Positions 18,821 through 22,784 of a DNA stretch of 37,487 nt are shown piece after piece (the first letter of the stretch is position 1; each line of letters opens with the position of its first letter). The notes below the pieces were generated by a model that saw only the letters and a program-made list of their open reading frames with translations, searched no databases and was not told the origin of the DNA. A program made the translations under genes and the position numbers. The stretch lies in assembly GCA_003282975.1 (NCBI GenBank), contig QBYD01000012.1:1-37487 (forward strand). The letters run 5' to 3'. This stretch comes from Pelagibacteraceae bacterium AG-325-C10 (GTDB lineage: Bacteria; Pseudomonadota; Alphaproteobacteria; Pelagibacterales; Pelagibacteraceae).

Positions 18821-19786
18821 TTAAAACCAATTATTTGGAATAATTATGTAATGAATTGCTAAAACAATTCCAACTGATACGCTTAATCCAAAGATCATTT
18901 TAAGAAAGTCTTTACCAATTAATGGGAAGACATATTTGAACTTATATTCTTTATTCATTGTCGATATTGCAAGTTCTCTACCACATAATAAACCAACGAA
19001 TACCCATGTTGTTGACATTGGTAAATCGTTTAGTTCCTTAAAGTAGAATAAAACAGCAGCATAAATTACATTGATAATTGTAGCTGATCTTGCATATCTA
19101 GTTCCAGTTTTTTCCAAAACTACTGCTTGGATCCGTCCACCTTGAATGTAGAAGATGTAAAATAGCAAAATAGTAAAATATGCCATTACAATCAGCAGTA
19201 TTGTAATATCAAGTTGTCTTGGAAGATATACTGCAATATTTGCTACATCGTGAGATAACCAAACCCACCATAACCAACCTGATGAAACCCAAACAGCATT
19301 TCTCCAAAATCCTATCCATTTGTCATCTACTTCATCAAATTTTTCATTAATGAATTTTGATACAGCTATCCAGGCTATGTAAGCAACCATTGCCGCTAAA
19401 CCATAACCAACTACACTTTTCATTAACATTTTTTCAAGCACAACTGTTGAAGCAAACGCTGAAAGAACTAAAAAGGTTGTTGATACAGGTATACCAACTC
19501 TTGTTAATAACAAAAGTATTGCAGGCGCTACTGCATGATACCATTGAATTTCTTGATAAGGTATTCTAGTTAATCTTCCATACGAAATATCACCATCATA
19601 CGAATACCATCCCCATGCTAACGCTAAAATCATCACACTAGAAGCTGATCCTGCAAGTACGTACCATTTAAACCACTTCTTTTTGGAAGCTATAAATGTA
19701 CCTAGTGTTTGAATTGAGTCGTTAGCGATTACGCTATAACCGGCAAGGGCAAACCCTATAACCGTGTAAATTAAAGTCATTTCCAT
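18821..19786 (-). CDS. Divergent PiT-superfamily (inorganic phosphate transporter-like) permease
   Basis: A 321-residue inner-membrane protein with about ten hydrophobic segments. It shows the internal duplication of the PiT family: an AND motif at 21-23 (VIANDSIQTLGTF) paired with PVSTT at 100-104, and HDVAN at 179-183 (WLSHDVANIAVYLPRQL) paired with PMSTT at 256-260. In PiT phosphate/sulfate permeases these repeats read GANDVANA and P(I/V)STT. The match supports the fold and probably an oxyanion or similar substrate, but the substitutions and the tryptophan-rich segment at 166-176 set it apart. Start: ATG at 19786 has AAGGAG 7 bases upstream; a second ATG two codons later is also possible. 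It is preceded by a 193-base structured leader and follows an aquaporin gene. Confidence 0.7.
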   Translation of the reverse strand: MEMTLIYTVIGFALAGYSVIANDSIQTLGTFIASKKKWFKWYVLAGSASSVMILALAWGWYSYDGDISYGRLTRIPYQEIQWYHAVAPAILLLLTRVGIPVSTTFLVLSAFASTVVLEKMLMKSVVGYGLAAMVAYIAWIAVSKFINEKFDEVDDKWIGFWRNAVWVSSGWLWWVWLSHDVANIAVYLPRQLDITILLIVMAYFTILLFYIFYIQGGRIQAVVLEKTGTRYARSATIINVIYAAVLFYFKELNDLPMSTTWVFVGLLCGRELAISTMNKEYKFKYVFPLIGKDFLKMIFGLSVSVGIVLAIHYIIIPNNWF

Positions 19787-19979: not shown

Positions 19980-20624
19980 TTATTTAACCAATTTCTTAAT
20001 TAAATATACAGCTATTAAAGCTCCCAAAAATTCAGCCAAAATATATGTAGGCGTATTTAAATAATTAATTCCTGTAAAAGAATCAGTAAAAGTTCTAGCT
20101 ATAGCAACAGCTGGATTTGCAAAAGATGTTGATGATGTAAACCAATAACCGGCTGTAATATATGTTGCAACGCAAGCTGCAACTGTTGTTTTTCCATCTT
20201 TTAAAGTTGCAAAGATAATAAATATTAGACCAAAAGTGGCTACAATTTCTGCCAGAAATATATGAAAGCCATCTCTACTTTTTGTAGATAATTCAATCAT
20301 ACTATGTTCAAAGAATACATTAGCTAACATTACACCTAATAAGCATCCCAATATTTGAGCTGGAATATATGTTATTAAAAGTTTTCCTTTAATTTTTTTG
20401 GTTAAAAACATTGCTAAACTTACAAAAGGATTAAAGTGAGCACCTGAAATGTCAGCAAAAGCTGTTATTAGAACAAATAAGCCTGCACCAGTTGCTAGTG
20501 TATTTGCTGTAAGTCTTAAAGCATTATCATCTGTTAAGTTTTCTGCCATTATTCCAGAACCAACAATAATCATTACTAAAAAACAACTACCTATAAATTC
20601 ACCGATGAAAATTCTATTCTTCAT
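19980..20624 (-). CDS. Aquaporin / MIP-family channel (AqpS-like)
   Basis: A 214-residue six-helix channel protein. The two half-helix motifs are present as NPF at 65-67 (GAHFNPFVSLAMFL) and NPA at 170-172 (FANPAVAIARTFTDSF), with R177 in the expected selectivity-filter position. A variant first motif and the ARTFTDSF(T)GI tail resemble AqpS channels, which in some Alphaproteobacteria replace an arsenite pump in arsenic operons. No arsR or arsC gene is present here, so an arsenic role is only a possibility; small neutral solutes or water are equally open. It begins 13 bases after a small membrane-protein gene in the same direction and is followed by the PiT-like gene. Confidence 0.85.
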   Translation of the reverse strand: MKNRIFIGEFIGSCFLVMIIVGSGIMAENLTDDNALRLTANTLATGAGLFVLITAFADISGAHFNPFVSLAMFLTKKIKGKLLITYIPAQILGCLLGVMLANVFFEHSMIELSTKSRDGFHIFLAEIVATFGLIFIIFATLKDGKTTVAACVATYITAGYWFTSSTSFANPAVAIARTFTDSFTGINYLNTPTYILAEFLGALIAVYLIKKLVK

Positions 20625-20637
20625 AATCTAATAATAA

Positions 20638-20859
20638 TTAAATTATAATTTTATAAATTCCAATTAAGAATAATGGTATTTGTAGTCCAAAGTTAGTTAG
20701 TATCGCTTTATCTTTTGATATAAAACCAGCTATCGTCCATCCTACAACGCCAAGTCCATGGAAGTAGATGTTAATAGGGTAGATATTTAAATTAGTTAAT
20801 AATATTCCAGTTAATACTAAAGCAGTACTGATCCATTTAAGGTATTTTTTAATAAACAT
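20638..20859 (-). CDS. Small conserved-looking membrane protein, function unknown
   Basis: A 73-residue protein I do not recognise by name. It has a short basic start (MFIKKYLKW), then hydrophobic stretches at about 9-22, 34-47 and 55-72, suggesting two or three membrane helices, and the central HGLGVVGWTIAGFISKDKAIL is its most distinctive part. Evidence that it is a real gene: a good GAGGAG ribosome-binding site directly upstream of the ATG at 20859, 13-base spacing to the aquaporin start on the same strand, and a strong stem-loop that encloses that ribosome-binding site. Its association with aquaporin and PiT-like genes hints at a membrane-transport role, which is inference. Confidence 0.65.
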   Translation of the reverse strand: MFIKKYLKWISTALVLTGILLTNLNIYPINIYFHGLGVVGWTIAGFISKDKAILTNFGLQIPLFLIGIYKIII

Positions 20860-20863
20860 AGTC

Positions 20864-20907
20864 TCCTCTATTTGTAATTTTTAGTATTTTATTACAAATA
20901 TAGAGGA
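20864..20907 (-). promoter_or_regulatory. Stem-loop covering the ribosome-binding site of the 73-residue membrane protein gene
   Basis: Plus-strand TCCTCTAT-TTGTAAT (20864-20878) is the complement of ATTACAA (20891-20897) and ATAGAGGA (20900-20907), separated by a 2-base bulge, giving a 15-bp stem with a 12-base loop. In the minus-strand transcript the 3' arm ends in AGAGGA, which together with the next G is the ribosome-binding site, 5 bases before the ATG at 20859. No T run follows on either strand, arguing against a simple terminator for znuA. A thermometer-like or ligand-controlled translational switch is a reasonable hypothesis. Confidence 0.6.
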
Positions 20908-20939
20908 AACTAAAATCTTAATTTATTTAATCCCTTAAA

Positions 20940-21968
20940 TTAACAGCCTTTAAATGAAGAAGACATGTTTCTAATTAAATCAAAATATAAATCTTTTCCT
21001 GGATTTAAAGTAGCTCCTAAAGGATCTATTACACCAGTTTTTATATTCATATCTTTAGCAACCGCTTTTATGATATCAGGGTTAAATTGAGGTTCTGAAA
21101 ATACGCAACTTACTTTATTGTGCTCAATTATTTCTCTAATTTCAGCTAATTGTTCTGCACCAGGCATCACATCAGCATTAACTGTAAAAGCACCTAATAC
21201 GTTTACATTAAATCTCTTTTCAAAATACTGATAAGCGTCATGAAAAACAATAGATGCTACACTTTGATTTAACTCAACTGTTACATCTTTAGTAAGTTTA
21301 TCAATTTCTTTGTAAGCTTTACTTAAATTTTCTTTATATTTAGTTTCATTTTTAGCATCTAACTCAATCAAGTGTTTAGACATTTCAAATAAAATTACTT
21401 TTGCATTAATTGGATCTAACCAAATGTGTGCATCGAATTCACCATGTGCATGTCCTTCATGATCGTCATGTCCGTCATGATCATCGTGTCCATCTTTCTT
21501 TTTAGCATGTCCATCGTGGTCGTGGTCATCATGATCGTCATGTCCATCTTTTTTCTTTTTAGCATGTCCATCGTGGTCGTCATGATCATCATGTTCATCA
21601 AAAATATTTCTTTCTCTGAATTTTAAAACTTGTAACCCTTTGGTTTCCATTAATTCGATTTTTTCAGCTTTCTTAGCAATTGAACTTAATGGTTTTTCTA
21701 AAAAATTTTCCATACCTTCACCAACCCAAAATATAAGATCAGCATTTTGTAACATCTTTGCATGTGATGGTTTCATTGAAAATCCATGAGGAGATGCATA
21801 ACCATCTACTATTAGATCAGGTTTTGCTACACCATCCATTAAATAACTGGCTAATGAATGTAATGGTTTAATAGATGTAACTACTTTTACTTCAGCATTT
21901 ACTGGTGTAAAGAAGGTCAAAACTGATAAGATTGATAAAATTAGCGGAATTTTTTTAATATTTTTCAT
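20940..21968 (-). CDS. znuA: Zinc ABC transporter, periplasmic binding protein
   Basis: A 342-residue periplasmic protein that captures Zn(II) for the ZnuBC importer. The signal peptide covers residues 1-25 (cleavage after TPVNA). Cluster A-1 features follow: SIKPLHSLASYLMDG, the ligand region SPHGFSMKPSHA (H61) and, after a His/Asp-rich insert, DAHIWLDPINAK (H181), a further histidine in VFHDAYQYF and a C-terminal aspartate in VIDPLGA. The insert at 126-175 is made of HDDHDGH-like units separated by lysine runs and is typical of zinc-specific (rather than manganese) members. The gene is divergent from znuC and shares two Zur operators with it. The protein ends in Cys, which may pair with the Cys in CVFSEPQF. 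Confidence 0.96.
   Translation of the reverse strand: MKNIKKIPLILSILSVLTFFTPVNAEVKVVTSIKPLHSLASYLMDGVAKPDLIVDGYASPHGFSMKPSHAKMLQNADLIFWVGEGMENFLEKPLSSIAKKAEKIELMETKGLQVLKFRERNIFDEHDDHDDHDGHAKKKKDGHDDHDDHDHDGHAKKKDGHDDHDGHDDHEGHAHGEFDAHIWLDPINAKVILFEMSKHLIELDAKNETKYKENLSKAYKEIDKLTKDVTVELNQSVASIVFHDAYQYFEKRFNVNVLGAFTVNADVMPGAEQLAEIREIIEHNKVSCVFSEPQFNPDIIKAVAKDMNIKTGVIDPLGATLNPGKDLYFDLIRNMSSSFKGC
21486..21580 (-). repeat. znuA: Direct repeat encoding the His/Asp-rich loop of ZnuA
   Basis: Two nearly identical copies, at about 21488-21523 and 21542-21580, encode a lysine run flanked by GHA and DGH units (AKKKDGH and AKKKKDGH). They differ by a 3-base insertion, one extra lysine codon. Around them, shorter CATGATCGT-like units are iterated. 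The loop probably grows and shrinks by slippage or unequal exchange; the reading frame is kept by 3-base steps. Confidence 0.8.
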
Positions 21969-21987: not shown

Positions 21988-22020
21988 TGTTATAATATAA
22001 CAGTATGTAATAATATAACA
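21988..22020. promoter_or_regulatory. Two Zur operators between znuA and znuCB-zur
   Basis: TGTTATAATATAACA (21988-22002) is a perfect 15-base palindrome and matches the core of the classical proteobacterial Zur box. A second copy, TGTAATAATATAACA (22006-22020), has one mismatched pair. Their centres are 18 bp apart. Both contain TATAAT-like -10 hexamers, so bound Zur would directly cover the divergent promoters of znuA and znuC, whose start codons are at 21968 and 22041. Confidence 0.85.
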
Positions 22021-22040: not shown

Positions 22041-22784
22041 ATGAATTCAGATAACATATTAGTTAAATTAAATAATGTAGGTTTTCGTCAAAACGAAAAG
22101 TATCTTGTTGAAGGTGTATCTTTACAAGTTGAAAAAGGTAAAATTATTACTCTTATAGGACCAAATGGATCTGGTAAAAGTACAACTGCTAAAATTGCCT
22201 TAGGTATTTATAAAAACATTGAAGGAAGTGTTGAAAAATATACTAATAAAATTGGCTATGTGCCTCAAAAAATTTCAATAGATTGGACTTTACCGTTAAG
22301 GGTGAGTGACTTTATGATTTTAACTGACAATATAAAAAATAACGAAATTAATGATGCCTTATCATTAACTGGAGTAATGCATCTTAAAAATAAAAATTTA
22401 GGTAATTTATCTGGAGGAGAATTTCAAAGAGTTCTACTTGCTAGAGCTATTTCTAAAAAACCAGAATTATTAGTATTAGATGAACCAGTACAAGGAGTTG
22501 ACTATGCGGGTGAAATTGCATTATACGAATTAATTAAAAAAATTTCAGATACTTTAAATTGTGGAATTTTATTAATATCACATGATTTACATACAGTAAT
22601 GACTGCTACTGACCATGTGGTTTGTTTAAATGGGCATGTTTGTTGTTCAGGTTCACCAATTGATGTCGCAAAAAATAATGAATATAAAACTTTATTTGGT
22701 GAGCAAGCATCTCAAATACTTTCAGTTTATGAGCATAAACATGATCACGAACATTCTATAGAAGGAGATATAAAAAAAAATTAA
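22041..22784 (+). CDS. znuC: Zinc ABC transporter, ATP-binding protein
   Basis: A 247-residue ATPase for zinc import. Walker A is GPNGSGKST at 40-48, followed by IGYVPQKISIDWTLPLRVSDFM (Q-loop region typical of the metal class), signature LSGGEFQRVLLARAI, Walker B LLVLDEPVQGVD and switch histidine in LLISHDLHTV. The C-terminal tail is histidine-rich (YEHKHDHEHS), a common trait in zinc systems. The ATG at 22041 is the first usable start; an upstream ATG at 22025 closes after a few codons. It is directly followed by znuB with no gap. Confidence 0.96.
   Translation: MNSDNILVKLNNVGFRQNEKYLVEGVSLQVEKGKIITLIGPNGSGKSTTAKIALGIYKNIEGSVEKYTNKIGYVPQKISIDWTLPLRVSDFMILTDNIKNNEINDALSLTGVMHLKNKNLGNLSGGEFQRVLLARAISKKPELLVLDEPVQGVDYAGEIALYELIKKISDTLNCGILLISHDLHTVMTATDHVVCLNGHVCCSGSPIDVAKNNEYKTLFGEQASQILSVYEHKHDHEHSIEGDIKKN

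Follow-up and report, generated by a model that had tools for sequence, protein, structure and literature searches.

The locus examined here raises the question of why a short gene should have its start site buried in a long hairpin, and how such a gene could be translated. The window, that is, the whole stretch of DNA that was analyzed, comprises 37,487 nt of contig QBYD01000012.1 from Pelagibacteraceae bacterium AG-325-C10. The masked gene (20638..20859, minus strand) encodes a 73-aa hydrophobic DUF6552 protein (PF20189, E 3.3e-10). Directly upstream is znuA (20940..21968, minus strand), encoding a periplasmic zinc-binding protein, with its stop 80 nt before the ATG of the DUF6552 gene.

Predicted fold over the start of the DUF6552 gene

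The whole stem-loop is predicted at 20859-20912 on the minus strand and consists of 13 + 7 bp, a 2-nt bulge, and a 12-nt loop. The 5′ outer arm UAGUUUCCUCUAU (20900..20912) is conserved behind znuA, and its partners in the fold are the SD region and the first base of the AUG. It is followed on the same strand by the bulge (20898..20899), the inner 5′ arm UUGUAAU (20891..20897), the loop (20879..20890), the inner 3′ arm AUUACAA (20872..20878), and the outer 3′ arm AUAGAGGAGACUA (20859..20871), which includes the SD-like AGAGGAG (20869-20863, minus strand) and the A of the start codon. In relatives, the inner 5′ arm doubles as the opening 7-mer of a Pho-box-like repeat, and the loop contains the second unit of that repeat, which is decayed in the window. 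The outer arms are 13 nt each, with 28 nt between them. The stem has 20 pairs, including one U-G, and in the minimum-energy fold the ATG at 20859 has its A paired. A reading made from the sequence only had described a 15-bp stem-loop with a 2-base bulge and AGAGGA 5 bases before the ATG. The stem-loop and its bulge were recovered, the stem proved longer, and the computed distance to the ATG is 4 bases. An outer 8-bp helix, weaker than the main stem, is present in both the minimum free energy and the centroid folds. Its 5′ strand AUUUAAGG (20933..20940, minus strand) begins with the final base of the stop codon of znuA and its 3′ strand CCUUAAAU (20835..20842, minus strand) is within the DUF6552 coding sequence, and the helix links bases at the znuA stop to early codons of the DUF6552 gene.

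The minus-strand 121 nt fold at −27.3 kcal/mol, compared with −14.99 ± 3.04 for 200 dinucleotide shuffles (z −4.05, 0 of 200 as good). Among 38 non-overlapping ORF starts in the window, the hairpin start has the lowest energy in the region from −65 to +3 (−21.0), and all 11 counted bases of its SD region are paired; at the next-lowest ORF start (−18.4), 3 of 11 are paired. Sliding segments of 68 nt reach −20 or lower 28 times on the plus strand and 19 times on the minus strand, of 7484 per strand, and three of those on the minus strand are the hairpin itself. The energy of the hairpin alone is not rare in the window, and its placement on the SD is the unusual feature. There is a single full match of the hairpin in its own genome (80% complete), where 13 other matches are 14-24 nt long; a repeat element present elsewhere in the genome was rejected, because a second copy is absent from this 80% complete assembly.

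The proposal that the stem hides the ribosome-binding site was supported by the predicted pairing of the SD. On read-through RNA from znuA, the mean unpaired probability of the SD is 0.010 at 4 °C and 0.018 at 37 °C. The proposed thermosensor did not survive the same calculation, in which the SD stays closed even at 75 °C (0.058), and an RNA thermometer was rejected, as the model is closed throughout 4-75 °C. A heat-capacity peak at 99 °C is the edge of the scan and was left out of this judgement. When the RNA begins 13-30 nt ahead of the ATG, the SD is unpaired at 0.34-0.45, and when it begins at −42 and still has the inner arm, at 0.15-0.20.

Gene neighborhood and transcription signals

The window comes from a SAR11 (Pelagibacter-like) genome, and in this group the spaces between genes are very short and regulators are few. 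In the window, the DUF6552 gene is followed by a MIP-family aquaporin gene (19980..20624, minus strand) and then by a gene for a 321-aa membrane protein without a clear family (18821-19786), for which Pfam gave no match better than E 0.47 and NCBIfam gave none. It contains STT motifs that, to our mind, recall Pit-type phosphate permeases. A divergent ABC-ATPase gene, znuC by position, is located at 22041-22784, and between it and znuA is GTTATAATATAAC (21989-22001), which we take to be a Zur-box-like palindrome. A zinc (Zur) operator in the stem was rejected, since this presumed palindrome sits upstream of znuA instead.

The znuA and DUF6552 genes are co-oriented and 80 nt apart, and the region 20600-21100 includes no terminator-like site (0, shuffles 0.2). 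The sequence 3′ of the stem is UGUUUAUUAA, in which a U run is absent. The stem is accordingly not a typical terminator, as had been said of it, and an intrinsic terminator was rejected. The sole minus-strand promoter-like site in 20600-21100 is at 21099-21070, within znuA, and promoter-like sites in this region are no more numerous than in shuffles. A consensus sigma-70 site was not found at the stem on the minus strand. At the gathering score, Rfam gave nothing at the stem and three tRNAs only in the whole window.

Distribution of the hairpin with the DUF6552 gene

The DUF6552 loci were taken from the best 80 of 454 matches, plus part of a sample of 399 genomes of the genus (among the matches listed). 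These best 80 of 454 matches are all from Pelagibacter, Pelagibacteraceae, or Pelagibacterales, and the gene is present in 259 of the 399 genus genomes. The stem accompanies it behind znuA, behind PhyH-like, proteasome-like, and porin-like genes, and behind a divergent zur; the porin-like neighbor was assigned by reading its C-terminus. Because the same gene and stem are found behind such varied neighbors, the stem belongs to the DUF6552 gene and not to znuA alone, and the earlier assignment of the stem to the small gene is upheld.

The stem lineage makes up 27 of 106 unique upstream regions, 19 of which fold at −15 kcal/mol or lower, and eight of which are weakened or broken (above −15 kcal/mol). 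A 78-base DNA probe detected the lineage at 19 places with E < 1e-11 in 18 of the 399 genomes, one place matching the 3′ part of the probe only. One genome includes two DUF6552 copies on two contigs (L196 and L197); the stem in the porin-like context is intact and the other is lost. Phage carriage was rejected, as none of 46 pattern-matching stretches from viral contigs encodes a DUF6552 relative. No mention of DUF6552 was found in the literature searched, and the portions available of papers on SAR11 and on fold-back or transposase leaders yielded none naming this hairpin element.

Start masking and adjacency to znuA

The masking cost, defined as the energy to free the SD and the AUG, was computed for 146 unique DUF6552 start regions from 226 loci; this set is without 16 loci lacking an accepted start region, some of them DUF6552 (e.g., L090-L092, L096, L103, and L144). 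Adjacency to znuA was called by its usual last codons within 130 nt. A cost of at least 10 kcal/mol was observed at 14 of 15 unique starts directly behind znuA and at 9 of 131 others (Fisher p 1e-12); p values overstate independence here, because the rows share ancestry. The sole znuA-adjacent start under 10 kcal/mol is L020 (8.3). Seven of the nine high-cost starts away from znuA belong to the stem lineage, and the other two are L110 (11.9) and L253 (10.8). This association of masking with a directly upstream znuA was overlooked when the hairpin was first read as a gated leader, and so was the Pho-box-like motif inside the hairpin in relatives.

Two znuA-DUF6552 junctions, L102 and L104, have a clearly different sequence and the same fold layout (z −5.5 and −4.5), with an inner UUGUAA/UUACAA helix followed by pairing across the SD core and then across the AUG. 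Their AUG is closed (unpaired 0.004) and the stretch from −14 to −7 is partly closed (0.40 and 0.37). As these two junctions may be relatives of the window type that have diverged from it, they were counted neither as an independent origin nor as covariation.

Hairpins were also observed behind znuA at other loci. Those of L021, L036, L115, and L140 fold at −19.4 to −23.6 kcal/mol (z −4.4 to −5.4); in each, the first 50 nt past the znuA stop form a hairpin that includes G-C pairs and lacks a clear U tract. At L017, L024, and L027, the gene directly behind znuA is redoxin-like by reading of its sequence, and its ATG is within the 3′ arm of a short hairpin in the first 40 nt after the stop. Thus, start masking behind znuA may extend beyond DUF6552.

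Conservation of the arms

Pairwise diversity was compared among 25 of the 27 lineage rows, omitting L197 (porin-like context) and L199 (5′ arm replaced). The znuA group comprises 12 unique stem rows, with the window omitted. In this group the diversity is 0.026 for the 5′ arm, 0.000 for UUGUAAU, 0.101 for the loop, and 0.071 for the 3′ arm, and it is 0.144 for the 8 bases of spacer just upstream of the arm. In the DUF6552 gene of the same rows, third codon positions show 0.176, with the first six codons omitted, and first and second positions 0.019; third positions of the znuA tail (60 codons) show 0.316. Thirteen random third positions match the conservation of the 5′ arm behind znuA in 0.0002 of draws. 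Behind the divergent zur (five rows), the 5′ arm shows 0.215 against 0.265 at third positions, and the corresponding values are 0.103 against 0.191 in the proteasome context (three rows) and 0.115 against 0.218 in the phyH context (four rows). The pooled 12 non-znuA rows give 0.192 against 0.299 (P 0.037). Judged from these alignments, the 5′ arm is clearly maintained at junctions where znuA leads into the gene; elsewhere, on small numbers of rows, it is maintained at most weakly.

The inner 5′ arm (TTGTAAT in DNA) and the AGG of the SD are both invariant in the 25 aligned rows. Compensatory substitutions in related genomes, which the sequence-only reading had named as a check, did not appear across these close rows; there are no compensatory double changes, and shuffled 3′ letters score equally. 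Therefore, the structure rests on prediction and conservation, not on covariation.

Pho-box-like motif and phosphate genes

At the pstS-like genes of the genus, a repeat of 11-bp spacing, TTGTAAC-N4-CTTTAAC-N4-CTTTAAT, was found at 28 of 30 loci in 10 distinct versions. We take this repeat to resemble the Pho box of Escherichia coli. The pattern was set by eye, and a matrix was built from those sites and applied with 200 shuffles per region. Of the 106 unique DUF6552 upstream regions, 69 match the motif at p ≤ 0.05 and 40 at p ≤ 0.01. The remaining 37 without the motif at p ≤ 0.05 include most of the group with zur directly upstream, as well as the window, whose best match (p 0.114) is not significant. 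Several groups have the motif at −50 to −52; its position is −40/−41 in the rows of the stem lineage and in one group that lacks an SD. In the stem lineage it is inside the hairpin in 18 of 27 rows at p ≤ 0.05, the repeats occupying the inner arm and the loop. The group lacking an SD consists of L105, L115, L119, and L195; the Pho-like motif is at −40 there, and a Pho-type start would give a leaderless mRNA.

The pstS-like genes were matches at E 0.001, below the curated cut-off, in 192 of 399 genus genomes, and PhoB was over its cut-off in 192 of 399. PhoB or PstS was found in 165 of 259 genomes with DUF6552 and in 40 of 140 without it, the genomes being incomplete. Among the DUF6552 genomes, the frequency is 6 of 18 in the stem lineage against 159 of 241 in the others (p 0.009), and when only genomes of high completeness are taken, the figures are 2 of 6 and 38 of 42, with G054, which has both genes, omitted from the count. 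In the window genome (80% complete) there was no PstS match, and the best PhoB match reached 176.6 bits against a cut-off of 296.2.

The neighbors of DUF6552 at L028 are phoB, phoU, and pst genes. At L019 the neighbor is a probable phnM by reading, with a sub-threshold amidohydrolase match in Pfam. In many relatives, although not in the window, DUF6552 is followed by an ArsC-like gene (LMWPc; below the NCBIfam ArsC cut-offs). According to PMC6426599, the arsenic genes found in SAR11 are limited to ArsC and an adjacent aquaporin, and P-starved HTCC7211 shows ArsC 2.3-fold up; by that account, the ArsC-like gene following DUF6552 in relatives belongs to the type induced there.

Interpretation of the hairpin

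The explanation that we favor, tentatively and at somewhat less than an even chance, is that the hairpin is a cis-acting fold-back translational insulator against read-through from znuA, escaped by transcripts that start inside it. An mRNA running on from znuA would carry both arms, the SD and start of DUF6552 would be buried in it, and such a message would give little or no DUF6552 protein. Transcripts begun inside the hairpin would lack the 5′ arm, could not form the hairpin, and would be translated. In relatives, the inner start would be provided by a Pho-box-like promoter with its repeats in the inner arm and loop, and transcripts from it would need no melting of the stem, since their start lies inside the hairpin. 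This explanation is favored because, by prediction, read-through RNA keeps the SD closed, while RNA with a start 13-30 nt ahead of the ATG leaves it more open. Computation gave the fold, the masking of the start, the link of that masking to a neighboring znuA, and the conservation of the 5′ arm at such junctions; that transcription runs on from znuA, that a transcript begins inside the hairpin, and that translation is lost are what we infer from them.

We count for the insulator the znuA-tied masking, the 5′ arm conservation behind znuA, the layout of L102 and L104, the Pho-like repeats, the co-occurrence with PhoB/PstS, and the ArsC-like gene of the P-induced type that comes after DUF6552 in many relatives. 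The inner start site is its weakest step. The window genome (80% complete) gave no PstS match and no PhoB over the cut-off, the motif match in the window is at p 0.114, and the stem-lineage genomes are poorer in PhoB/PstS than the other DUF6552 genomes. Assuming the spacing of E. coli phoA, a motif at −41 would set a PhoB-type start near −3. The RNA would then be nearly leaderless and the SD idle, and the conserved AGG of the SD counts against such a start. An idle SD set against a conserved one would mean that the start is further upstream in the loop, or that some SD-bearing RNA is opened. The absence of compensatory pairs and the weak arm conservation in the other co-oriented contexts (three rows and four rows) also count against the insulator.

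The strongest rival, unlikely as we judge it, is that the hairpin is mainly the 3′ end of the znuA mRNA, produced by factor-dependent termination, processing, or exonuclease protection, and that the cover over the SD is a by-product of tight spacing. Strong 5′ arm conservation only behind znuA agrees with this, and so do 4 of 15 unique znuA ends without DUF6552 next, which have a strong hairpin after the stop. A U tract is absent, however, and the stem is found as well where the upstream gene is a different one or is divergent. Moreover, the pairing in both znuA-DUF6552 types reaches the start, covering the SD in the window type and, in L102 and L104, the AUG together with part of the SD, which a pure 3′-end hairpin need not do. 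Such a role could be combined with that of an insulator. A gated leader, opened by a protein, a small RNA, or a ligand on znuA-derived or leader-bearing mRNA, is improbable. It would account for an SD conserved despite its masking and for the retention of the stem in PhoB/PstS-poor genomes, where expression from upstream RNA would need an opener. For the protein- or ligand-gated leader that had been suggested, no positive evidence emerged; neither an Rfam family nor compensatory changes in the 25 close rows were found, and the model, as far as it goes, excludes temperature as the signal.

Two further readings deny the RNA structure any role. In one of them, quite improbable in our estimate, the inverted repeat is functionless, the product of a copying error close to the SD that recombination then spread along with its gene. 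The lack of compensatory pairs speaks for it, and so do the weakened or broken arms in 8 of 27 lineage rows (above −15 kcal/mol). It is opposed by the low diversity of the 5′ arm behind znuA relative to the adjacent spacer and third codon positions, and by the diverged L102/L104 junction, which keeps the same layout. The other, very improbable, is a DNA-level site in which a regulator binds the inverted repeat and the RNA fold is incidental. The invariance of TTGTAAT in 25 rows and the 11-bp direct repeat like the pstS motif are compatible with regulator binding. What is conserved, however, is this direct Pho-like repeat; the outer arms vary while TTGTAAT stays constant, and two 13-nt arms placed 28 nt apart are unlike the usual spacing of operators.

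Comparison with known systems

Fold-back inhibition is known from the transposases of IS10 and IS50, where a transcript from outside brings along an additional 5′ arm, which base-pairs to the ribosome-binding site, and the element's own transcript lacks this arm. The insulator resembles this arrangement in that the masking arm is carried by the outside transcript and would be absent from the gene's own, whose start is inferred here. It differs in that a host gene linked to nutrient genes is concerned, with no transposon. In bacteriophage T4, read-through RNAs of the genes e (lysozyme), soc, and 49 are masked, and late RNAs start inside the hairpin. The likeness would be a promoter inside the hairpin with a silent long RNA and an active short one, as proposed here; phage timing has no counterpart, and the inner element is Pho-box-like in most of the lineage and decayed in the window. 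The predicted fold shows the mark of the fold-back type (IS10 or T4 e), a 5′ hairpin masking the SD or AUG on upstream RNA. RNA thermometers that sequester the ribosome-binding site, such as ROSE and fourU, consist of a 5′ hairpin whose 3′ arm holds the SD, as is the case here; for the present hairpin, however, no melting up to 75 °C is predicted and there is no Rfam match. Masking of the ribosome-binding site by fold-back is a known kind of device, of which the hairpin in the window is likely another example.

A term look-up in the accessible parts of two papers on insertion sequences (PMC4265352 and PMC5006887) gave no passage on IS10/IS50 fold-back. Meyer et al. 2009 (PMC2704228) presented candidate structured RNAs from SAR11, which are likewise intergenic hairpins. 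According to the part of that paper available, covariation was reported for them, which the stem in the window does not show, and the words znuA, zinc, and phosphate are absent from its main text.

It is conceivable, although doubtful, that genes landing directly behind znuA in SAR11 have been selected for a start-masking hairpin, which would separate zinc from phosphate/arsenate responses at translation and not by terminators, and that the DUF6552 cassette carries an insulator and an inner promoter between places by recombination. If the insulator holds, an SD hairpin with an inner promoter would be a compact device separating neighboring nutrient genes in highly abundant ocean bacteria, and the uncharacterized membrane protein DUF6552 would be tied to phosphate and arsenate genes. 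It would also advise caution against assuming the co-expression of co-oriented, closely spaced SAR11 genes. As a minor observation on the upstream gene, ZnuA has an insert rich in histidine and aspartate with repeated units, at approximately 21440-21605 of the window.
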